Of a stretch of 32,276 nt of DNA, positions 8,071-32,225 are shown piece after piece. The stretch spans positions 1-32,276 of the forward strand of contig WAOT01000055.1 of NCBI GenBank assembly GCA_015521115.1, given 5' to 3'. A model generated the notes under the pieces. It ran no database searches and had not been told where the DNA came from. It was given only the letters and a program-made list of their open reading frames with translations. This DNA comes from Desulfurococcales archaeon (GTDB lineage Archaea > Thermoproteota > Thermoprotei_A > Sulfolobales > Acidilobaceae). The position numbers were made by a program, and so were the translations under genes. Position 1 is the stretch's first letter; the number at the start of each line of letters is the position of its first letter.

Positions 8071-9272
8071 ACATCCTCTAGCTCCGCCCTCACCCTTGTA
8101 CCAGTGGCTATGGCGCTCGTTATAGTGGAGAGTATGGCGGCCACAATGATTACACCCGCCAGGCGCTCATCGAGTATCCCGAGGGTCGAGCCCGTATACG
8201 CTATTATCGTGGAGACTGTCAGTTTAGCTCCGAAGACGTGGGAGAGCCTCGCCCTTATCCTCCTCCCCGTGAGGAACCGGAGAGCGTAGTGGACGACTAC
8301 GACTTGTACTACGTATGAGACTGCGAAGAGGAGTAGCGCGTCTGAGAGGAGGCCGGTTATGTTCTTCGGTGCTGAGTGGAGGCCTGCGGATATGAAGAAG
8401 ATGGGAGCTAGGAGGCCGAAGGTGAGGCCCGCCACCTTTTCCTCTAGGGCCTTGTCATGTAGTATCACGTCCCTGGTCGCTATGCCTAGGAGGAATGCGA
8501 AGAGGATCGCGTGTACACCTATCTTCTCCCCCACCAAGCTGACGGCCAGCAGGAACGCAATTATGAGCCTAAGCTCTACCTCATTCTCCCCACCGGCAGC
8601 ATACCGGAGGAACCTGGCGAACAAGTATACGGCAGCCACCAGCCCGATCATGTAGAGGACTATGAGAAGGTCTAAGCCTGCGGTCACGAGGACGAAGCCC
8701 AGGACGCCACCAATATCTATTATCATGGACGCGCTTATAATAATCTGCCCCAGGACGCTCCTAGTCATCCCCCACTTCTTGACAATCGCAAAAACTATCG
8801 CCACACTCGTAGCGCTAAGCGCTATGCCAACTAGAAGGGAGGCCTCCGGGCCGTAACCCATGAACCTCAACAGTACGTAGACGACCGCGGTAGGCACTAG
8901 GAGGCCTACCAGGCCGCTCCCCATGCTAGGGACAAGATAACGGCGTAGTAGTCTAGGGTCGATCTCAAGGCCTGCAACATACATGATGAAGACGCTGCCG
9001 ACAAGGGCGAGAACCTCGAGGGCCTCATTCGACTCGAGGCCAAGAACCCCGGCCCCCACCCCCAGCACTAGCTCAACTACTGCCGCGGCCACACCTATGG
9101 CATCCGCTATCAAGCTACTGCCGGCCAACAGCATCGCTATAACGCTTAAGACGAAGAGCTCCTCATGACCATGGAATATGTCCACACCCCAACGGGCTGC
9201 AGTCAACGCTGCAACAGACAGGGCTAAACCAATTGCCAGTTTCCCGCCCCGGCCAGCACCCCTATACATCAC
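8064..9272 (-). CDS. Kef-like cation/proton antiporter (CPA2 superfamily)
   Basis: A 402-residue integral membrane protein with about 12 hydrophobic segments filling nearly the whole length. Family hallmarks are MYVAGLEIDPRLLRR early on, SATSVAIVFAIVKKWG in the middle and SMIIDIGGVLGF (D186), which corresponds to the ion-binding helix. Electrogenic relatives carry two adjacent acids there (DD); here the first is Ile, leaving one Asp, as in KefC-type exchangers. There is no cytosolic TrkA-N regulatory domain. The likely role is exchange of Na+ or K+ for protons across the cytoplasmic membrane. The start is GTG 9272 or ATG 9269. A TATA-like AAGATATGAC on the minus strand (9313-9322) lies upstream. 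The ion is not determined. Confidence 0.85.
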   Translation of the reverse strand: MMYRGAGRGGKLAIGLALSVAALTAARWGVDIFHGHEELFVLSVIAMLLAGSSLIADAIGVAAAVVELVLGVGAGVLGLESNEALEVLALVGSVFIMYVAGLEIDPRLLRRYLVPSMGSGLVGLLVPTAVVYVLLRFMGYGPEASLLVGIALSATSVAIVFAIVKKWGMTRSVLGQIIISASMIIDIGGVLGFVLVTAGLDLLIVLYMIGLVAAVYLFARFLRYAAGGENEVELRLIIAFLLAVSLVGEKIGVHAILFAFLLGIATRDVILHDKALEEKVAGLTFGLLAPIFFISAGLHSAPKNITGLLSDALLLFAVSYVVQVVVVHYALRFLTGRRIRARLSHVFGAKLTVSTIIAYTGSTLGILDERLAGVIIVAAILSTITSAIATGTRVRAELEDVY

Positions 9273-9501
9273 CTACAACCCCGCCCGGAGGCATGGAAGA
9301 GTAGGTCTCAAGTCATATCTTAACCGTGACGTATAGCATGTGCAGACAATAAGGATGATAGTGCTGCTACTATTTACTCCACTCCCGAATAACATGCGGA
9401 TCGTGCTAGCTTACAGTAAAATACACTATGACTTGTATTCGTACAGTGAGGTTTAGTAATGTGTTAGGGATAGGCCTATAACGGGGGCTGCAACATGGTC
9501 T
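9273..9501. other. AT-rich spacer between antiporter and remnant ORF
   Basis: No gene is seen. Base composition falls sharply from about 9340 onward compared with both flanks. The segment holds a putative minus-strand promoter for the antiporter (around 9313-9322) and a 10-bp palindrome ATAGGCCTAT at 9470-9479. The low GC continues into the remnant ORF and ends just before tRNA-Leu, suggesting that all of about 9340-9640 has a different origin from its surroundings. Confidence 0.5.
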
Positions 9502-9642
9502 ATGTATATAAAGAAGGTGAAGAGAGGCTCAAAGAAGTACTATTATCTTGTAATAGAGGTATATCTTGGTAATAGAAAGAGAAGAACACTAGCTCACATC
9601 TCAGTATCAAAAATACTAAAAGAGTTTGGAATCGAGGTTGAC
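9502..9642 (+). pseudogene. AT-rich coding remnant abutting tRNA-Leu, possibly from a mobile element
   Basis: About 46 codons of protein-like sequence (Met-Tyr-Ile, Lys/Arg-rich, KKYYYLVIEVYLGNRKRR) with AAG/AAA and AGA codons and A/T third positions. This is unlike neighbouring genes, which use AGG and G/C-ending codons. The frame then runs without a stop into GC-rich DNA and the antisense strand of the tRNA gene, ending at 9789, so the natural C-terminus has been lost. The basic, tyrosine-rich start resembles the N-termini of transposase or integrated-element proteins, but I cannot name a family. Position next to a tRNA 3' end fits a leftover of an integrated element. Whether it is expressed is unknown. 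Confidence 0.45.
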
Positions 9643-22978: not shown

Positions 22979-23158
22979 AGCGTATCACCCGATCCTTATC
23001 CCCGCCTCTAGCCCGCACATCCAGGGTTTTATTGCCTGGTATATGCACCGTCCTGTTAGATCATTACACGTGAGATCTCCTGCCTCCACGACTCTAACGT
23101 TTACTGACATGACACTAAATCGGGATTCAAGGGGACACTGCTGGAGAGGGTGTGGCTA

Positions 23159-24334
23159 GTGCATATGGGGAGGTGGCCCTTCGACAAGAAGCCACTACTA
23201 GTCTTCTGGGAGATGACTAAAGCGTGCCTCCTAACGTGTAAGCACTGTAGGGCTAACGCGATAAAAGAGGCTCTCCCGGGAGAGCTGAGCACGGAGGAGG
23301 GGAAGCGTCTACTGGAGCAGGTTGCATTGTTCGGCCGGCCAACCCCGATTACAGTCTTCACTGGCGGAGACCCACTAATGAGGAAGGACTTCTGGGAGCT
23401 GCTGGGGTATGCTAGGAGGCTGGGCGTTAGGGTTGCAGTAGCCCCCAGCGTCACCCCCCTCCTGACAAGGGAGGCCCTCGAGAGGATGGCGATGCTGGGG
23501 GTCTCTAGTGTTAGCATAAGCCTTGACAGCCCGTTTGAGGAGGTTCACGATGATATCAGGGGGATTAAGGGTACTTGGAAGAGGACGGTTCAGGCCATAA
23601 AGGACGCTATAAGGGTAGGCCTCCGCGTTCAAGTTAATACCGTGGTTATGAGGCCGACAGTCGAGGGCCTAGCAGATATGGTGAAACTCCTCCTGGATCT
23701 CGGAGTCCGAACCTGGGAGGTCTTCTACTTCGTCCCTACAGGCAGGGGCAACATAGACCTCGACCTAACACCCGAGGAGTGGGAGGATGTGAACCACTTC
23801 CTCTACGAGGCAAGCCGTTACGGCATACTGACGAGAACTGTTGAGGGCCCAATGTTCCGTAGGGTGGCTTTGACGAGGAGGTATTATGAGTCGAAGGGAA
23901 TGCTCGAGGAGATCGATAGGGGGCTTGGAAGGCTATACCACAAGCTGGTGAGCAGGCTGCACGAGCTGCTCGGCCCACCCACGGGGCCCCCAAGGGCCCA
24001 CACTGTCGGGACAATGGACGCGAGAGGCATAATATTCATCTCGTACAACGGTAACGTATACCCCAGCGGCTTCCTCCCACTCTCAGCGGGCAACGTGCGT
24101 GTGAAGAGCCTAGTCGAGATCTATAGGAGGACTAGGCTATTCACCACACTTAGAGAGAAGGTCAAGGGGAGATGCGCCACTTGCGAGTTTAAGAGGATAT
24201 GCGGGGGTAGCAGGGCGAGGGCCTACGCTTACACAGGTGATCCCTACGCCGAAGACCCTGCCTGCCCCTACACGCCCGGCTCCCTGCCCCCTGAGATCAT
24301 GGAGGTGTCGGCCCATGGAGCTAGACACGCTTGA
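23159..24334 (+). CDS. ahbD: Radical SAM heme synthase AhbD (Fe-coproporphyrin III decarboxylase)
   Basis: The last step of the siroheme-dependent heme route: oxidative decarboxylation of two propionates of Fe-coproporphyrin III to the vinyl groups of heme b. The radical SAM cluster motif CLLTCKHC is near the N-terminus, followed by VFTGGDPLMRKD (GGDP rather than GGEP, as I recall for AhbD-like enzymes). A C-terminal SPASM-like cluster region reads CATCEFKRICGGSRARA then DPAC. About 391 residues. GTG 23159 is favoured by GGAGAGG nine bases upstream; GTG 23150 and ATG 23165 are alternatives. It heads the operon ahbD-ahbA/B-ahbC-precorrin-2 dehydrogenase. AhbC and AhbD are related, so the two names could be swapped, though each keeps its own features. 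Confidence 0.82.
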   Translation: MHMGRWPFDKKPLLVFWEMTKACLLTCKHCRANAIKEALPGELSTEEGKRLLEQVALFGRPTPITVFTGGDPLMRKDFWELLGYARRLGVRVAVAPSVTPLLTREALERMAMLGVSSVSISLDSPFEEVHDDIRGIKGTWKRTVQAIKDAIRVGLRVQVNTVVMRPTVEGLADMVKLLLDLGVRTWEVFYFVPTGRGNIDLDLTPEEWEDVNHFLYEASRYGILTRTVEGPMFRRVALTRRYYESKGMLEEIDRGLGRLYHKLVSRLHELLGPPTGPPRAHTVGTMDARGIIFISYNGNVYPSGFLPLSAGNVRVKSLVEIYRRTRLFTTLREKVKGRCATCEFKRICGGSRARAYAYTGDPYAEDPACPYTPGSLPPEIMEVSAHGARHA

Positions 24335-25280
24335 TAAGAGCATATTGATGGAGCTCCAATACAGGTTCCCCCGAGACCCATACCCCTACGAGACGGTAGC
24401 CGAGAGGCTTGGCATAAGGGAGGAGGAGCTGCTGGATAGGCTTAGGAGGCTCAAGAGCATAGGGATCCTCAAGAGGGTAGGGTTCTACGTGAACTACCGC
24501 AGCGTAGGGTTGAAAGCGGCCCTTATAGCGTACAAGGCGCCAGGGCTCCACGAGAGGCTCGCTAAGATCTACCGGGTGGATCGATACGCCACACACGTCT
24601 ACCTAAGAGACCACCCCGAGTATAACGTTTGGGTAGTAACGAAGAGGCGCAGCATGGAGGAGCTAATAGGCCACGTGGAACACGTCAAAAAAGAGCTGGG
24701 CGTGGAGGCCATAATTTTGTACTCCAAACGGACATACAAGCTGAGCGTCAAATACGACCTCGAGAGGGGAATATCATGGGCTGGCCCCTACAGTACGGTC
24801 TCACCCGACCCACCAAGACCCGAGGACTTAGGGATCCCCGCTGAAGTCCTAAGGATGTTCAGGAGCCTTCCTATAGAGAGGAGCCCCTACAGTAGGATAG
24901 CAGAGGCGCTCGGCGTAGGCGTGGATGAGGCGGCCGAGACCGCCTGGAACCTCCTCGAGAAAGGCCTCCTAGGAGATCCTGGGGCGGCACTAGACGGTAG
25001 AAGGGTGGGGTTCAACGAGAATGCAATGGTCGTAATGGAGCCTTCCGGATGCGAGGAGTCCCTCTGCCAATGCGCCACGCAGCTCCCCTTCACGACGCAC
25101 GTTGTTCTTAGGAGGTCTATACCGGAGGGTGCGTGGAGGCATACGTGCTATTTCATGGTTCACGCGGTGAGCAGGGAGATGATAAAGGAACTAGTCGGGG
25201 AGGCGGTTGAGAAGTGTTCTCCTAGGAGTTTCCACGTCATCCGGAGCCTTGCGGATCTGAAGCCGGGCGTTATGAGGTGA
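24315..25280 (+). CDS. ahbAB: Siroheme decarboxylase, fused AhbA-AhbB
   Basis: Removes carboxyl groups from two acetate side chains of siroheme to give 12,18-didecarboxysiroheme. AhbA and AhbB are usually separate Lrp/AsnC-like proteins forming a heterodimer. Here one 321-residue chain has both. Half one (about 1-150) starts MELDTLDKSILMELQYRFP, typical of the family, with a winged helix and then THVYLRDHPEYNVWVV. Half two (about 165-321) repeats the plan, with PYSRIAEALGVGVDEAAETAW and THVVLRRSIPEGAWRHTCYF. ATG 24315 fits the family start; the frame is open further upstream to GTG 24237 but inside ahbD. It overlaps ahbD by 20 bases. Despite the helix-turn-helix fold it is taken as an enzyme because of its location. 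Confidence 0.85.
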   Translation: MELDTLDKSILMELQYRFPRDPYPYETVAERLGIREEELLDRLRRLKSIGILKRVGFYVNYRSVGLKAALIAYKAPGLHERLAKIYRVDRYATHVYLRDHPEYNVWVVTKRRSMEELIGHVEHVKKELGVEAIILYSKRTYKLSVKYDLERGISWAGPYSTVSPDPPRPEDLGIPAEVLRMFRSLPIERSPYSRIAEALGVGVDEAAETAWNLLEKGLLGDPGAALDGRRVGFNENAMVVMEPSGCEESLCQCATQLPFTTHVVLRRSIPEGAWRHTCYFMVHAVSREMIKELVGEAVEKCSPRSFHVIRSLADLKPGVMR

Positions 25281-25286
25281 TTGCAC

Positions 25287-26456
25287 GTGATCCCCTTAAG
25301 TGTAATGGTCACTGGAAGGGGCACGGTATCGACCCGGATTAAGGGGAGATATCATAGGGGGAGGCCTAGCAGGTTCACCTCAGTCATAAGGCCCGTCATA
25401 TTCTGGAACATCACGTATAAGTGTAACTTGAGGTGTGAGCACTGCTATATCAACGCCGGCCCCGACATCACCCTACCGGAGCTTAGTGTCGGTGAAGTCC
25501 TCAACGTGGCAAGGCAGATCGTGGATCACGGTATCCCGCTTGTCGTCTTCACGGGCGGCGAACCCCTCATCTCAGAAAAGTTCTGGAGAGCCCTCGAATT
25601 CTTCCACAGCGTGGGGAAGCCTAAGACAAGCGTCTCAACCAATGGAACCCTGATTACCCCTGAGACAGCGTTAAGGCTCAAAGAGCTGGGGGTATCATAT
25701 GTTGGCGTGAGCCTCGATAGCCTCGACGAGGAGTTACATGATAAGTTCAGAGGTGTTAAGGGTTCTTGGAAGGCGGCTGTTAGGGGTATGAAGAACAGTG
25801 TCGCAGCAGGCCTACCAACGGGGCTGAGGGTTACCGCCACAAGGGATAACCTCGATGAGATACCGAGGATGATCGATTTCGCCGCGGATCTGGGGCTGGA
25901 GAGGGTTAGCGTCTACCTCCTTGACACTATAGGGAGGGGGGCCCAGATAGCAGGTCAAGTCCCCCGGGGGGAGGAGCTTAAACGGCTCATAGACTCTCTA
26001 ATTGAGAAGGCGAGGGAATATGATGGAGTGCTCGAGATCCTCCTTGTCAGGATGAACTTCGCAGGGATATACGTGGCCGACGTGCTCTCCAGGTCAAGGG
26101 ATGAGTTCAAGGAGTACCTGGAACTACTAGGCGCCCAGGGAGACTGTGGCCGCAAAACGGCGAGCATATACCCTGACGGCACAGTCAGGCCCTGCCAGTT
26201 CATAGACTACATAATAATAGGAGACCTACGGAGGCAGGAGCTGTCAGAAATACTCCGACCCGACAACCCCAGACTACGCCCCTTCCTAGAGGTCGGTGAT
26301 AGGCTGAGAGGCCCCAAGTGCTCGAGCTGCCCCTTCCGCGACATCTGTGGTGGTGGTAGCAGGAACAGGGCCCTCGTTGCTACGGGCGACTTCTGGGGCG
26401 ATGACCCAGCATGCTTCATAGACCCACTCAGGATCTGGGAGAGGTGGGCTGAGTAA
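25287..26456 (+). CDS. ahbC: Radical SAM didecarboxysiroheme deacetylase AhbC
   Basis: Removes the two remaining acetate groups of 12,18-didecarboxysiroheme to form Fe-coproporphyrin III. The 389-residue protein has the radical SAM motif CNLRCEHCY (C46, C50, C53) within FWNITYKC, then VVFTGGEPLISEKF. A second cluster region reads DCGRKTASIYPDGTVRPCQF and then CSSCPFRDICGGGSRNRA with DPAC. GTG 25287 is chosen because GAGGTGA, spanning the ahbAB stop, lies six bases upstream; TTG 25281 directly abuts the stop. It overlaps the dehydrogenase gene by one base (TAATG). AhbC rather than AhbD is assigned from the FWNITYKCNLRCEHCY start and GGEP motif. Confidence 0.82.
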   Translation: MIPLSVMVTGRGTVSTRIKGRYHRGRPSRFTSVIRPVIFWNITYKCNLRCEHCYINAGPDITLPELSVGEVLNVARQIVDHGIPLVVFTGGEPLISEKFWRALEFFHSVGKPKTSVSTNGTLITPETALRLKELGVSYVGVSLDSLDEELHDKFRGVKGSWKAAVRGMKNSVAAGLPTGLRVTATRDNLDEIPRMIDFAADLGLERVSVYLLDTIGRGAQIAGQVPRGEELKRLIDSLIEKAREYDGVLEILLVRMNFAGIYVADVLSRSRDEFKEYLELLGAQGDCGRKTASIYPDGTVRPCQFIDYIIIGDLRRQELSEILRPDNPRLRPFLEVGDRLRGPKCSSCPFRDICGGGSRNRALVATGDFWGDDPACFIDPLRIWERWAE

Positions 26457-27133
26457 TGGGTGAGTGGATACCGCTCTACATCAACCCTTCAAACCTAAAA
26501 GTCTCAGTACTGGGCGGAGGAAGGCTAGGTACTAGGAGGGCCCTCCACTTCTGCCGGGCCGGGGCTCAGGTGAGGGTGTACTCGCTTGATTTCAGCGAAG
26601 AGCTTGTGAGAGCCCAGTGCGAGGGGTTAGAGCTTATTGAGGCTGACCTCTCCAGGGAAGAGGCCCTCCGGGCCGCTATCGAGTGGGCGAACCTGGTTGT
26701 GATAGCAACCGGGGATAGAGAGGTTGACGGTAGAGCTTCCAGGTTAGCGCTGAGTATGAGGAAGCTGGTGAACAACGGGGTCGATGCGTTGAGCGGTAAT
26801 GTTATTGTCCCGTTCAGCGGGGAGACGAGCTACGGCCTAAAGTTTGCAGTCACAAGCCTTGGGGCAACAGGGATAGCTGCGAGGCAGGCCCGTGACATGG
26901 TGTTTGAAGTCCTAGAAGACAACACGTACATCCGGACGCTGTATAGGGTCATGGCCAGGATCAAGAGGTGGCTGAAGTCGAACATTCCAAATGCTAAGGA
27001 GCGCCTCCCCCTCTACTTTATAGTGGAGGAGGACAAGGAGTTCGTCAAACTAGTGGGGGAGGGGCGCGAGGAGGAGGCCTTCGAGAGGGCTATAGCGGTG
27101 GTCATGGAGGAGCTCTCCCAAGCTCGCGGTTAG
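26456..27133 (+). CDS. Precorrin-2 dehydrogenase (CysG N-terminal/Met8p type)
   Basis: Oxidises precorrin-2 to sirohydrochlorin with NAD+. The 225-residue protein starts with a short strand and the dinucleotide-binding motif VLGGGRLGTRRALHF (glycines 20-22 and 25), then NLVVIATGDREVDGRAS, followed by the family segment VDALSGNVIVPFSGETSYGLKFAVTSLG. Some members (Met8p) also chelate iron. The separate candidate chelatase gene next to it suggests the dehydrogenase may only do the oxidation here. The ATG overlaps the ahbC stop by one base, so it is the last gene of the ahb operon. It converges with the chelatase-like gene, with a 4-base TTAG stop overlap. Confidence 0.88.
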   Translation: MGEWIPLYINPSNLKVSVLGGGRLGTRRALHFCRAGAQVRVYSLDFSEELVRAQCEGLELIEADLSREEALRAAIEWANLVVIATGDREVDGRASRLALSMRKLVNNGVDALSGNVIVPFSGETSYGLKFAVTSLGATGIAARQARDMVFEVLEDNTYIRTLYRVMARIKRWLKSNIPNAKERLPLYFIVEEDKEFVKLVGEGREEEAFERAIAVVMEELSQARG

Positions 27134-27741
27134 GTGGATCCTGTTAATGTTGAGGCAACCGATATTATCCATGCCGTCAGCATCCCCTTAGAGCTGGGTA
27201 GGAGTTGTGCCTCAACAATCTCTCCTCCAACATACTTTGAGAGCAAGCGGGGGAGCCTGCTGGGGAGCAGGGTTAGCACTACTATGGAGTCATACTTATC
27301 CTTGAAGGCTCGGGGATCCTCCTTCACAGTATCATGCGGTACCGGGTCGACCTTACAATTGAGTAGCGATGAAGCGTTTGAGGCTATCTCCGCATAGCCC
27401 CTGTCATGCTCCTCCCTATTCCTCTTAGCCCCCCAATAGACTAGGGCTACTCGCCTCGAACCCTTCAACCCCTCTACCCCCGTCAATGCTAGCGCGGGTA
27501 GCCATGGTGGTATTGGGCCTACGACCTTTTCAGCACGAACAGATTCTAAGGCCTCTAGGTAGTGTCCTCCACGTGAGAGTAGAAGGATGACAGCAGCATC
27601 ATACGAGTTATGGGCAGGCGATCCGATCTCTACACCTTCCACCTCCCAGCCCGTTAGCCTTGATATCGTTTCAGCGAGATCCTCTATGTGGTGGTAGCCT
27701 TCCCTCCTCCCCGGCCTGTGGTGGACGAGGGCTAACCTCAT
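27130..27741 (-). CDS. CbiX-like protein, candidate sirohydrochlorin chelatase
   Basis: A 203-residue cytosolic protein that I assign with caution. It begins with a strand then VHHRPGRREGYHHIEDL (a His-rich segment), then VILLLSRGGHYLEALESV, which resembles the second conserved histidine region of small class II chelatases (CbiX/SirB). The second half repeats the pattern: VALVYWGAKRNREEHDRG, then SIVVLTLLPSRLPRLL. Such tandem alpha/beta halves suit the chelatase fold. An iron chelatase for sirohydrochlorin is the one step of siroheme formation otherwise unassigned here, and the gene lies between the ahb and hem operons. GGAGAGGAG precedes the ATG by two or three bases. Weak alternative: an unrelated alpha/beta protein. 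Confidence 0.5.
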   Translation of the reverse strand: MRLALVHHRPGRREGYHHIEDLAETISRLTGWEVEGVEIGSPAHNSYDAAVILLLSRGGHYLEALESVRAEKVVGPIPPWLPALALTGVEGLKGSRRVALVYWGAKRNREEHDRGYAEIASNASSLLNCKVDPVPHDTVKEDPRAFKDKYDSIVVLTLLPSRLPRLLSKYVGGEIVEAQLLPSSKGMLTAWIISVASTLTGST

Positions 27742-27788
27742 ACTCCTCTCCTTGGGTTAAGTCCAGTTGCCCGGGAATTCCTGTTATC

Positions 27789-27806
27789 GTACTTACATGT
27801 AAATAC
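27789..27806. promoter_or_regulatory. 18-bp inverted repeat in the divergent hemA promoter region
   Basis: GTACTTACA and TGTAAATAC form an inverted repeat with eight of nine positions paired, including the perfect 10-bp core TTACATGTAA (27793-27802). It lies 48 bases from the chelatase-like gene start and about 78 bases before GTG 27884 of hemA. It is AT-rich and could also contribute TATA elements in both directions. The symmetry suggests binding of a dimeric regulator controlling tetrapyrrole synthesis. Confidence 0.5.
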
Positions 27807-27883
27807 GGGGTAGCCGCGAGTACCGCTCTAGACTTACGAGACGTGATATTAGAAGATGTCTAGGCTGATTAGTGGGGAGTGGG

Positions 27884-29071
27884 GTGGAGGAGGGGGCAGT
27901 AGGAGAGCTGCTAGGGAGGCTTGTAGCAGTCTACACCAGTCATAAGGAGTCACCGCTGGAGGTAATCGGGAGGCTAGAGACAGAGGTTGACACAATCTAT
28001 GAAAGTGTCGAGGCTGAGGGCGTGGTTGTACTAGCCACATGCAACAGGTTTGAGGTCTACATGGATACACCTAGAGGGGGCAGTGTAGACCGGGTCTTGC
28101 GGGTGATCGAGGAGGCAGGCGGGAACCCTAGGGTGGTATGGGGTGTTGAGGCTGCAAGGAGGCTCCTCAGGATCGCTGCAGGCCTCGAATCCCAGATAAT
28201 CGGCGAGCCAGAGATACTCGGACAGGTCAGGCAGGCCATACAAAGGTCGAGGGAGCTGGGGAGGGTGAGTAGCTTCCTCGAGATCGTTTTCCGCAGCGCG
28301 CTCATGGCGGGTAGAAGGGTTAGGAGGGAGACCCCCCTAGGTAGGTCTAGGGTGGGCTATCCCTCCGCTGCGGTGTCCCTAGCGTACCGCCTAGCTGGTA
28401 ATGTGAGGAATGCTTTGATCGTGGGCACAGGGAAGGCCGCTAGGAGGGTGCTTGCAATCCTTTGTCGCAGGGGGCCGGAGAGGGTGGTTGTCTCTTCGAG
28501 GAGCCTAGAGAGGGCTGCAGCACTATCTAACATGTGTGAGTATGCTGTGGCTACCACAATAGAGGGGATAAGGGATCACGCCCCATACGATGTGGCTTTT
28601 GTCGCTGTTACAGGGTATAGACCTCCAGGCTATATACCGGAGATCTCTCGCTTCGTGGTAGACCTCTCGAACCCTCCAGTCTTCAGCGGGGACAACGTGT
28701 TTGGCATGGACGACCTGCGGGGGGAGATAGAGGAGGCTATTAGGGGTAATCTTAGGTTTGTCCCACAGGCTGAGATGATAGTGGAGGAGGAGCTCGAGTC
28801 CCTTATTAGGAAGATAGCGGAGATGAGGGTGTCCAGTGTTATCAGGGCCCTCCTCGAATACTCCCGTCACATTACCGAGGAAGTATCGCATGATGGTGTG
28901 AGGAGGCATGTTGAGCTCGCGGTGAGCCGCCTCCTCCACCCCATACTCGTATCCCTCCGCAGGGCCTCGGTTGAGGGCTCCTCGTTCGAGCACTTCCTCT
29001 CTATCCTTATGGAGGAGTTGGAGGGTAGGGGTGAGTATAGTGTTCGTGCTCCCCGAGTTCCCAGTAAGTAG
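27884..29071 (+). CDS. hemA: Glutamyl-tRNA reductase
   Basis: First step of the C5 pathway: reduction of glutamyl-tRNA to glutamate-1-semialdehyde with NADPH. The catalytic cysteine lies in VLATCNRFEVY (C53 from this start), followed by AAGLESQIIGEPEILGQVR and the NADPH-binding NALIVGTGKAARRVL. The C-terminal dimerisation helices include ESLIRKIAEMRVSSVIRALLEY. It has 395 residues, a normal length. GTG 27884 places the first strand (RLVAVYTSHKESPLEV) close to the N-terminus as in the family; GTG 27872 would add four residues. It heads the hemA-hemB-hemL-hemC-cobA operon and overlaps hemB by up to 41 bases. Confidence 0.95.
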   Translation: MEEGAVGELLGRLVAVYTSHKESPLEVIGRLETEVDTIYESVEAEGVVVLATCNRFEVYMDTPRGGSVDRVLRVIEEAGGNPRVVWGVEAARRLLRIAAGLESQIIGEPEILGQVRQAIQRSRELGRVSSFLEIVFRSALMAGRRVRRETPLGRSRVGYPSAAVSLAYRLAGNVRNALIVGTGKAARRVLAILCRRGPERVVVSSRSLERAAALSNMCEYAVATTIEGIRDHAPYDVAFVAVTGYRPPGYIPEISRFVVDLSNPPVFSGDNVFGMDDLRGEIEEAIRGNLRFVPQAEMIVEEELESLIRKIAEMRVSSVIRALLEYSRHITEEVSHDGVRRHVELAVSRLLHPILVSLRRASVEGSSFEHFLSILMEELEGRGEYSVRAPRVPSK

Positions 29072-30050
29072 GCCTCGAAGGCTTCGTTTGACTACTGCTA
29101 TAAGGGATCTCGTTAGAGACGTCTCCCTCAGCCCTTCAGACCTGGTGCTACCGGTGTTTGTCAGTGAGGCCCTGGAGAGGCCTGCTCCTATCGAGAGCCT
29201 CCCCGGGCACTACTATTACCCGCCAACGTCGAAGGAGCTAGTCGACCACATAGGCAGGGCTCTAGAGTTGGGGGTCAAGGCCTTCCTCTTATTCGGGGTT
29301 CCCAAGGTTAAGGATGAAGCGGCCTCCAGGGCCTATGCATCTGACGGCCCAGTCCAGGAGGCTATCCGGCATATAAGGAAGGAGATCGGCTGGGAGCCGG
29401 TGATCGCTGCAGACCTCTGTATCTGCGGCTATGCTAGCCATGGCCACTGTGGTGTGCCTAAGAAGTGTAGGAGAGGGGTCTGTATTGATAATGATGCTAC
29501 GCTCGAGATCTATAGGAGGATAGCTGTTAGCCAGGCCGATGCCGGTGCAGACATCATTGCACCCAGCGGGATGATGGACGGCCAGGTTAAGGCTATAAGG
29601 GAGGCCCTAGATGGTGAGGGGTTCAGTGATGTCTCCATAATGTCGTATAGTGTCAAGTATGCAAGCAGCTTCTACGGCCCGTTCCGTGACGTCATGGACA
29701 GTGCACCCCGCTGGGGTGATAGAAGGAGCTATCAGATGGATCCCGGTAACACACACGACATACTGAAGGAGGCACTCCTAGATGTTGCTGAGGGTGCAGA
29801 CATACTAATGGTCAAGCCCGCACTCCCCTACCTAGACGTCATATACAGGCTCCACACCACGATCACCACTCACCCGCTTGCAGCGTATAACGTGAGCGGG
29901 GAGTACATGATGGTCAAGCTCCTAGCTGAGGGGGGATATGGAGACTATAACAGTCTCATGCTCGAAGTGCTAACCTCGATCAAGAGGGCCGGGGCCGACA
30001 TAATAATAACATACCATGCACTAGACGCAGCCAAACTCCTAAGGGGGTGA
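29031..30050 (+). CDS. hemB: Porphobilinogen synthase (5-aminolevulinate dehydratase)
   Basis: Condenses two 5-aminolevulinate molecules to porphobilinogen. The 339-residue protein has the Schiff-base lysines in SYSVKYASSFYGPFRD (K209) and MVKPALPYLD (K262). The metal-binding loop reads DLCICGYASHGHCG (C130, C132, C140), the cysteine-rich zinc type rather than the aspartate-rich magnesium type. GTG 29031 follows GAGGGTAGGG and overlaps the end of hemA; GTG 29046 (MLPEFPVSRPRR) is also likely, and the frame is open back to 28971 with non-family sequence. hemL follows after seven bases. No missing residues were seen. Confidence 0.95.
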   Translation: MSIVFVLPEFPVSRPRRLRLTTAIRDLVRDVSLSPSDLVLPVFVSEALERPAPIESLPGHYYYPPTSKELVDHIGRALELGVKAFLLFGVPKVKDEAASRAYASDGPVQEAIRHIRKEIGWEPVIAADLCICGYASHGHCGVPKKCRRGVCIDNDATLEIYRRIAVSQADAGADIIAPSGMMDGQVKAIREALDGEGFSDVSIMSYSVKYASSFYGPFRDVMDSAPRWGDRRSYQMDPGNTHDILKEALLDVAEGADILMVKPALPYLDVIYRLHTTITTHPLAAYNVSGEYMMVKLLAEGGYGDYNSLMLEVLTSIKRAGADIIITYHALDAAKLLRG

Positions 30051-30057
30051 TACAGCC

Positions 30058-31338
30058 GTGGCGACCGTCAAGGAGGAGATCCTCGAGAGGGCCAGGAGGG
30101 TTCTGGTTGGGGGCGTTAATAGCCCTGTAAGGGCCCTTACGAGGCCAGAACCGATAATTGCCGTCTCAGGTGAAGGCCCCTACCTCTACGATGCAAAATG
30201 GGGGAAACTTGTTGACTACGTGCTAGGATATGGGCCCCTGATACTAGGCCATAAACACCCCCACGTCTTAGAGAAGATCAGGGAGGCCCTAGAGGCGGGC
30301 TGGCTATATGGGAATACGAGCCCCCTAGAGGTTGAGCTAGCGGAGAAGGTCGTTGAACACGTATACCCTGGCGGAAAGGTCAGGTTTGTAAATAGTGGGA
30401 CAGAGGCGACAATGCTTGCAATACGCCTCGCAAGAGCCTACACAGGGAGGAAGCTCATCGTAAAATTCAACGGATGCTACCACGGCGCTCACGACCACGT
30501 GCTCGTTGGAGCAGGGAGCGCTGCAAGCCATCTAGGCGTCCCTAAGAGCCCAGGGATCCCGGAGGAGGTTACGAGGCTCGTACTAGTGGTGGACTACAAC
30601 GATATTGACGGTTTGAGGGGGGTGTTCGAGGAGAGGGGTGAGGAGATCGCCGCCGTAATTGTTGAGCCAGTCGCAGGCAACTATGGTGTCATACCACCGA
30701 GGGAGGGGTTCCTAGAGGAGATCCGGAGGCTTACGAGGAAGTATGGGGCCCTCATGATAATGGACGAGGTGATAACCGGCTTCAGGCTCTCGCTCGGCGG
30801 AGCACAGGAGTTCTATGGTGTAAGGGCTGATCTGGTAACCCTAGGTAAGGTCATTGGTGGAGGCATGCCTGTGGGGGCTGTCGTCGGGCCCGGTGAGATA
30901 ATGGACAACCTCACGCCATCGGGGAAAGTGTTTAACGCTGGCACCTTCAACGGCCACCCAATAGCAATGGCTGCTGGGCTCGCGACAATCGAGGTTTTAG
31001 AGAGGGAGGGGCTCGAACCTGCTATAAGACATGCGGCTTCCATCGAGAAGATAATAGTTGAGACCCTCTCGTCAACGGGGAAGGCTTATACGGTGAACCG
31101 GGTTGGCCCAATGCTCCAGTTCTTCATAGGGGTGGAAAAGGTCGTCTCACCCTCAGATGTTGATAAGGCCGATAAGAAGCTATACACTCGAATTCACGAG
31201 GAGCTTATAAAAAGCGGGGTCTTCATAGCCCCAAGCCAGCTTGAGGCGGTCTTCACGAGCATAGTCCACACCGACACTGAGGCGGCTGAGTTCGCGGAGG
31301 CGTTCGAAAAGGCCCTTCGGGGGGCTGGGCTGTCTTGA
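30058..31338 (+). CDS. hemL: Glutamate-1-semialdehyde 2,1-aminomutase
   Basis: A PLP enzyme converting glutamate-1-semialdehyde to 5-aminolevulinate, the second step of the C5 route. The 426-residue class III aminotransferase fold opens with RVLVGGVNSPVRAL, carries VNSGTEATMLAIRLARAYTG, the PLP-contacting aspartate in MIMDEVITGFR and the Schiff-base lysine in VTLGKVIGGGMPVG (K264). The GTG start at 30058 follows GGGGGTGATACAGCC. It overlaps hemC by four bases (TTGA), so translation is coupled. Length and motifs are standard. Confidence 0.96.
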   Translation: MATVKEEILERARRVLVGGVNSPVRALTRPEPIIAVSGEGPYLYDAKWGKLVDYVLGYGPLILGHKHPHVLEKIREALEAGWLYGNTSPLEVELAEKVVEHVYPGGKVRFVNSGTEATMLAIRLARAYTGRKLIVKFNGCYHGAHDHVLVGAGSAASHLGVPKSPGIPEEVTRLVLVVDYNDIDGLRGVFEERGEEIAAVIVEPVAGNYGVIPPREGFLEEIRRLTRKYGALMIMDEVITGFRLSLGGAQEFYGVRADLVTLGKVIGGGMPVGAVVGPGEIMDNLTPSGKVFNAGTFNGHPIAMAAGLATIEVLEREGLEPAIRHAASIEKIIVETLSSTGKAYTVNRVGPMLQFFIGVEKVVSPSDVDKADKKLYTRIHEELIKSGVFIAPSQLEAVFTSIVHTDTEAAEFAEAFEKALRGAGLS

Positions 31339-32225
31339 AGATCCGTGTCGCTGCAAGGACTAGCAGGTTGAGCCTGGAGCAAGTTAGGATCGCTATGGAG
31401 TATGCGTCGAGGAAGCTTGGAGGCCTCTCATACGAGGTCATAGGCGTCAAGACGCTCGGTGATCATGTAAAGGATAAGCCGTTACACGAGATAGGTAGGA
31501 AGGGGGTCTTTGAGAAGGAGGTGAACAAGGCAGTCCTCGATGGGCTCGCAGACGTCGCCATTCACAGCCTCAAAGACTTACCCTCAAGGCTCCCCAACGA
31601 GCTGGAAATAGTGATGGTACCCCCGAGAGGGCCTAGGAGCGACTCTCTGGTGCCTAGGCGTGGGCTGAGAGTCCTACCACTAGAAGATCTCCCGCCGGGA
31701 ACAGTGGTGGCTGCAGGCTCCCCCAGGAGGAAGGGTGCAGTACTTCATACCAACAGCCGTGTGGAGACTACGTGGATAAGGGGGAATGTTGATACACGGT
31801 TGAGGAGGCTTGATGAAGGGAGGGCGGACTACCTCGTCGCCGCTGAAGCTGGCCTGGCAAGGCTGGGTATTGAGAGGCCTAGGCTAGTCTTAGATCCCGA
31901 GCGTTTCGTCCCCACGCCCGGGCAAGGCCTGATCGCTGTGGTGGCGTTGAGGGAGACGAGTATAGCCCGACTCCTCCGGGAGGCAACACATCCTGAGACG
32001 ACACGTGAGGCTGAGGCTGAGATAGCATTCCTCCAAACCCTACGTGGAGGGTGCGGTGTGCCTGTCGGTGCTACGGCCTTTGCAGAGAAGAGGGTCTTCA
32101 TAGCCGCAGACTACAGCCTCACAAGGCCTAAGCCTCTCCTCATACATGAGGCGGGAGGGGATCTCGTCGAGATGGCTGAGAGAGCGGCATCCACAATAGC
32201 AGGGTCACCGGGGAGGGAGTGGTGA
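31335..32225 (+). CDS. hemC: Hydroxymethylbilane synthase (porphobilinogen deaminase)
   Basis: Polymerises four porphobilinogens into hydroxymethylbilane. The 296-residue protein begins KIRVAARTSRLSLEQ and contains the substrate-site segments EIGRKGVFEKEVNKA and AIHSLKDLP, the arginine-rich GSPRRKG and IRGNVDTRL, and the cofactor-attachment cysteine in LRGGCGVPVGA (C240), to which dipyrromethane is bound. The TTG start overlaps the hemL stop, and the stop overlaps the next gene start (GTGA). Length is normal. Confidence 0.96.
   Translation: MKIRVAARTSRLSLEQVRIAMEYASRKLGGLSYEVIGVKTLGDHVKDKPLHEIGRKGVFEKEVNKAVLDGLADVAIHSLKDLPSRLPNELEIVMVPPRGPRSDSLVPRRGLRVLPLEDLPPGTVVAAGSPRRKGAVLHTNSRVETTWIRGNVDTRLRRLDEGRADYLVAAEAGLARLGIERPRLVLDPERFVPTPGQGLIAVVALRETSIARLLREATHPETTREAEAEIAFLQTLRGGCGVPVGATAFAEKRVFIAADYSLTRPKPLLIHEAGGDLVEMAERAASTIAGSPGREW

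Follow-up and report, generated by a model that had tools for sequence, protein, structure and literature searches.

A divergent two-lobed protein as candidate sirohydrochlorin ferrochelatase in a heme gene cluster of a Desulfurococcales archaeon

Results

Gene content of the heme cluster

The stretch of DNA analysed here (the window, 32,276 nucleotides from a Desulfurococcales archaeon, contig WAOT01000055.1) carries two sets of heme biosynthesis genes on its forward strand. The first set begins with a gene for an AhbD-like radical SAM/SPASM protein (positions 23150–24334). Its product scored 500.3 bits against TIGR04053 (cut-off 395) and 276.4 bits against the AhbD model TIGR04545, below the cut-off of 500, so that its assignment as heme synthase is made by context. 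The following genes encode a fused AhbA-AhbB siroheme decarboxylase (24312–25280, start codon approximate; 131.7 bits with NF040707, above the cut-off, and 101.3 bits with NF040708, below it), a second radical SAM/SPASM protein, which belongs to the AhbC/NirJ group (25281–26456; the AhbC/NirJ equivalog models listed for it score below their cut-offs), and a precorrin-2 dehydrogenase of the SirC/CysG N-terminal type (26456–27133; PF13241 at E = 2.3e-17, CysG-N models below cut-off). The second set consists of genes for glutamyl-tRNA reductase HemA (27872–29071; PF05201 and PF00745, TIGR01035 below cut-off), porphobilinogen synthase HemB (28971–30050, start codon uncertain; PF00490, and NF006762 above cut-off), glutamate-1-semialdehyde aminomutase HemL (30058–31338; TIGR00713 above cut-off) and hydroxymethylbilane synthase HemC (31335–32225; TIGR00212 above cut-off), after which the contig ends. 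Just upstream of the heme cluster, the segment 21469–22978 contains a molybdopterin-binding oxidoreductase gene (PF00174) and a convergent thioredoxin-like gene (PF00085).

Between the two sets, in the position already given by a preliminary description of this DNA, lies a gene on the reverse strand (27130–27741) that encodes a protein of 203 amino acids, with its ATG at 27741, its coding part at 27133–27741 and its stop codon at 27130–27132. This gene is oriented against the operons that flank it. It shares 4 bp at its 3′ end with the convergent sirC-type gene, and on the other side it is divergent from hemA, from which it is separated by an intergenic stretch of about 130 bp (27742–27871).

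The genes for HemD (PF02602 above cut-off) and uroporphyrinogen III methyltransferase (SUMT) lie next to each other outside the window, on another contig (C20) of the same genome. Since both were found there, the step that still lacks a gene is iron insertion. The route from glutamyl-tRNA to heme is otherwise covered, which bears out the earlier statement that sirohydrochlorin ferrochelatase is the sole unassigned step.

Recognition and spread of the candidate family

At E≤1, neither Pfam nor NCBIfam gave a match for the 203-residue protein. Membership of the CbiX family PF01903 was rejected at the level of sequence, the gathering score not being reached; among 22 members of the candidate family, this model gave a single match, at E = 0.035. 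The genome (99.9% complete) was searched for another clear CbiX or SirB gene, which would have spoken against the candidate, and no match to CbiX (PF01903), ferrochelatase (PF00762) or CbiK (PF06180) was obtained at E≤10. The same searches were positive in 13, 10 and 9 of 14 control genomes, respectively.

When 60 genomes were searched with the single sequence (E≤1), 28 of them, its own included, contained relatives. With a profile of 22 sequences (A1, E≤0.01), the family was detected in 56 of the 214 genomes of the order, distributed over its own family f1 (38 of 48 genomes; named records include Aeropyrum and other Acidilobaceae MAGs), f7 (14), f8 (2) and f10 (2). These carriers include one genome (G032) whose sole match may be a paralogue lacking the histidines described below. 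In a sample of 300 genomes from the phylum, 14 of the 15 matches came from f1 or f7 and the last was weak and partial; the family is essentially absent outside the order. We found no paper on it in the open-access literature, a scope that leaves out most subscription journals.

Gene neighbourhoods were read in 40 stretches out of the 61 places with a match. In 39 of them a heme or sirC gene (SirC, AhbAB, radical SAM genes, HemA, HemB, HemL or HemC) lies beside the candidate family member, and the gene order of the window is repeated in many. A heme neighbour is missing at a single locus (L127, positions 8976–9575 of G016:C3), whose genome carries a further, heme-linked copy. Neither of the invariant histidines is retained in the product of L127, for which Pfam likewise gave no match. 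L127 is one of several second, more distant copies in genus g13, the others being in G024:C82 and G072:C215.

Conserved residues and internal duplication

The window protein was aligned with 39 heme-linked homologues, the L127 paralogue being excluded. Only three residues are invariant in the 40 sequences: His8 (codon 27718–27720, reverse strand), His60 (27562–27564) and Pro78 (27508–27510). They are followed by L53, G58 and R107 (38/40 each), G59 (36/40) and R57 (34/40). In the predicted structure, His8 comes just after the first strand (VHHRPG), His60, in the motif RGGH, opens a helix (residues 59–67) behind the third strand, and Pro78 stands past strand 4. The histidine-containing loops noticed earlier are therefore real, with a correction as to the N-terminal His-His pair: only its second residue, His8, is invariant, position 7 being mostly Tyr across the family. 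The paired histidines proposed as a target for mutation would be His8 and His60, not His8 and its immediate neighbour.

Comparison of the profiles of the N- and C-terminal halves with hhalign gave an alignment of 72 columns with a score of 51 (E = 2.2e-9), compared with a best score of 14.6 in 100 column shuffles. In this register VHHRPGR stands opposite VYWGAKR and the RGGH loop opposite an LLPSR loop. Both invariant histidines are in the N-terminal half, and the C-terminal half has neither. Together with the two alpha/beta lobes of the predicted structure, this confirms the duplicated alpha/beta layout that had been proposed.

Predicted fold

The window protein was modelled by AlphaFold2 with nine named homologues (pLDDT 91.7, pTM 0.87), although two models out of five scored poorly (65 and 62). 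With the Aeropyrum homologue as query, pLDDT was 94.0 and all five models reached 93–94. The top match of Foldseek in the PDB was the siroheme chelatase CbiX 4ccs (E = 2.6e-5), with LacI-type and sugar-binding proteins interspersed among the matches. With VIA-align, the best 50 matches listed for the window model were all chelatase-type, counting as such FetB (Z 12.6) and DR2241 (Z 10.3), which we take to belong there by their fold. SirB (5zt7_A) came first, with Z 15.7 over 199 residues at 3.3 Å, and Z was 14.2 for CbiK, 13.9 for CbiX and about 13–13.8 for ferrochelatases. The Aeropyrum model gave the same picture: SirB at Z 16.2, chelatase-type proteins in rows 1–34 down to Z 11.2, and unrelated proteins from Z 9.9. 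An unrelated fold would have spoken against the preliminary description; the matches obtained are to class II chelatases, and on the basis of both models the protein very likely has the class II chelatase fold. At the sequence level, the A1 profile retrieved nothing relevant from the PDB.

The profile comparison with CbiX, which had been suggested as a check and was run three ways, gave a mixed answer. Against a CbiX alignment from the phylum, hhalign produced a score of 25.1 (E = 0.0035), higher than all of 100 column shuffles (best 15.7), and aligned His8 with the His of the CbiX motif LHGS and His60 with the His of G-x-H. However, real decoys scored higher: HemA reached 38.7, and the profiles of two radical SAM proteins gave 26.3 and 26.5. 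Because of this we do not use the hhalign score as proof of homology. Homology between the candidate family and CbiX is supported by the predicted fold, without significant support from sequence. The view that the protein is far from textbook CbiX/SirB and may form a new branch agrees with these comparisons and with the lack of any family match.

Distribution relative to the Ahb pathway, CbiX and CbiC

Genomes were scored as having the Ahb pathway when the AhbB model NF040707 matched at E≤1e-12. The threshold was set post hoc because at E≤1e-5 this model matches 205 of the 214 genomes, the weaker matches being taken for Lrp-type regulators; the results also hold at 1e-13 and 1e-15. Among the 98 Ahb-positive genomes, 55 have the candidate family, 33 have a CbiX above cut-off and 10 have neither, whereas the 116 Ahb-negative genomes include one with the candidate family and four with CbiX. 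Co-occurrence of the candidate family with a canonical CbiX above cut-off is zero. When only genomes at least 90% complete are counted (contamination not filtered), the Ahb-positive ones (n = 61) divide into 28 with the candidate family, 31 with CbiX and 2 with neither, and the Ahb-negative ones (n = 60) include none with the candidate family and 2 with CbiX. As the relatedness of the genomes inflates p-values, we put the weight on repeats of the pattern inside families: the proportion of carriers is 38/39 in Ahb-positive versus 0/9 in Ahb-negative genomes of f1, 2/2 versus 0/6 in f8 and 13/16 versus 1/4 in f7, and in f10 two of three Ahb-positive genomes are carriers.

In the two complete Ahb-negative genomes with CbiX (G125 and G047), CbiX shares a reading frame with the cobalamin gene CbiC. 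CbiC is present in 32 of the 214 genomes, all from f3 or f11, and in none of the 56 carriers of the candidate family. Cobalamin is thus not the purpose of the family, which argues against a role with cobalt. Many genomes of f11 (apparently Sulfolobaceae) have a second CbiX match together with CbiC in one frame of about 350 codons (for example G203:C1:341897–342850), besides a separate, stand-alone short CbiX, which suggests a division of labour between cobalt and iron.

The ten Ahb-positive genomes with neither gene are six incomplete ones (56–88%) and four of family f5, two of which are 94–96% complete (G049, G059, G060 and G061, loci L161–L164). The Ahb pathway is present in these four. A search of twelve genomes for divergent relatives with a larger profile (A6, E≤10) gave weak short matches in three, all outside f5, and none in f5. 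The f5 heme cluster holds no recognised chelatase; it includes HemD, SUMT and an aldo/keto reductase located between AhbAB and HemD. We conclude that the f5 gap is genuine, and that some relatives therefore use something else.

Discussion

Taken together, the existence of a family, the invariance of two histidines, the internal duplication, the predicted fold, the neighbourhood and the mutual exclusion with CbiX in Ahb genomes make it highly probable, in our view, that this protein is a sirohydrochlorin ferrochelatase serving siroheme-dependent heme synthesis, and a new branch of the class II chelatases. The proposal that a CbiX-like gene supplies the missing iron chelatase is thereby supported by fold and genome search, iron insertion itself being what we infer from them.

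The enzyme would be a two-lobed, ATP-independent class II chelatase, presumably monomeric. It would put Fe2+ into the sirohydrochlorin made by the adjacent SirC-type dehydrogenase, and the siroheme so produced would serve AhbAB as substrate in the siroheme-dependent pathway; this activity, its metal and the order of the steps are those that fold and gene context suggest. As in SirB, the cleft that separates the lobes may accommodate the tetrapyrrole. His8 and His60, which would lie at the rim of the N-terminal lobe, could both bind the metal and accept the pyrrole protons, while the C-terminal lobe, apparently a degenerate copy devoid of the histidines, would close the pocket.

The closest known systems include SirB of B. 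subtilis (PDB 5zt7/6jv6) and CbiX-long, with which the candidate shares the two-lobed class II fold (199 of 203 residues) and a genomic setting that includes genes for SirC and SUMT. According to PMC11301274, the metal site of SirB consists of His10, Glu43 and His76, all in the N-terminal domain, so that its histidine pair is confined to the N-terminal lobe as are the ligands proposed here. From their order, their secondary-structure positions and their hhalign placement on the CbiX histidines, His8 and His60 are proposed to be the counterparts of His10 and His76. The differences are nevertheless substantial. The candidate is about 50 residues shorter than SirB and 15% identical to it, its family has no conserved acidic residue at the place of Glu43, its second motif is RGGH instead of the G-x-H-x-x-x-D-I-P of CbiX, and in its model DSSP assigns no helix to the segment that joins strands 2 and 3 in the N-terminal lobe (residues 39–45).

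The single-lobe CbiX-short/CfbA type, represented by the stand-alone CbiX of f11 and f6, occupies the same pathway position in sister families, and its two histidines are those with which hhalign aligns His8 and His60. In contrast to it, the candidate has both lobes in one chain with a single histidine pair, and the similarity between them is not significant relative to decoys. Paracoccus-type CbiX (4ccs), likewise presented in the literature as a siroheme ferrochelatase that had been ‘missing’ (PMC4063343), and CbiK (2xvx, 1qgo) share the fold (Z 12.6–14.2), but their catalytic histidines are in the C-terminal half, whereas those of the candidate are in the N-terminal half. Finally, CysG-N and Met8p catalyse the same reaction in other organisms with a different fold, a family represented here by the neighbouring SirC.

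This last family raises the question of whether the SirC-type dehydrogenase could itself be bifunctional like CysG-N and Met8p and insert the iron, leaving the candidate ORF as a helper or in some other role. In PMC7018833, residue D104 of CysG, in the DAPK loop, is described as conserved in bifunctional enzymes and replaced by Ser in monofunctional SirC. Asp is indeed present at this position in the SirC of the window, and also in all four SirC of the f5 genomes that have no recognised chelatase. Across 23 loci including the window, however, the position is occupied by Asp in 13 and by another residue in 10 (E in four, K in three, and N, S and T), and the Pro of the DAPK loop is found in none of them, the window SirC reading DALS. 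With Asp in 13 of 23 loci, SirC could contribute in certain species, but as an explanation for the whole family it is unlikely; a bifunctional SirC would moreover leave unexplained an invariant two-histidine protein of chelatase fold whose occurrence follows the pathway and is mutually exclusive with that of CbiX. We regard it as very improbable. Insertion of another metal (Co or Ni) by the candidate, or a function as tetrapyrrole binder or carrier resembling the FetB-type heme binders, seems to us only a little easier to accept, and still improbable. The fold by itself leaves the metal open, and its matches include CbiK and the heme-binding FetB (9b86). Yet the CbiC needed for cobalamin is missing from every carrier, the identified neighbour genes belong to heme synthesis, and the two histidines are kept, while both are lost in the one orphan paralogue that was read (L127).

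HemD is another poorly conserved two-lobed alpha/beta protein, and a divergent uroporphyrinogen III synthase might be suspected, the more so as Storbeck et al. (2010, PMC3004389) report that hemD was not recognisable in Aeropyrum pernix, whose genus carries the candidate family. We reject this identity as extremely improbable: PF02602 does not match the window protein, the genome has its own HemD on contig C20, and the predicted structure matches chelatases over its full length. To our knowledge, two invariant histidines are not a trait of HemD either.

The two-lobed form of the candidate may have arisen independently. In such a scenario a single-lobe CbiX-like ancestor would have been duplicated and fused within the order, apart from SirB/CbiX-long, after which the C-terminal lobe would have lost its histidines, the N-terminal lobe would have had a helix trimmed, and the metal site would have come to consist of two histidines with no conserved acidic ligand. 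The two halves resemble each other more closely (hhalign score 51) than the family resembles CbiX (25). We put this history forward tentatively and hold it to be rather doubtful.

Storbeck et al. (2010, PMC3004389) state that no obvious ferrochelatase gene was detected in the heme gene clusters of archaea. As the candidate family shows, class II chelatases diverge so far that family profiles no longer recognise them, and other ‘missing’ chelatases, for example that of f5, may have escaped notice for this reason. The genera that carry the candidate family include some with cultured members. For a large part of one archaeal order, the family provides a concrete candidate for the ferrochelatase and makes this open step of heme synthesis testable.
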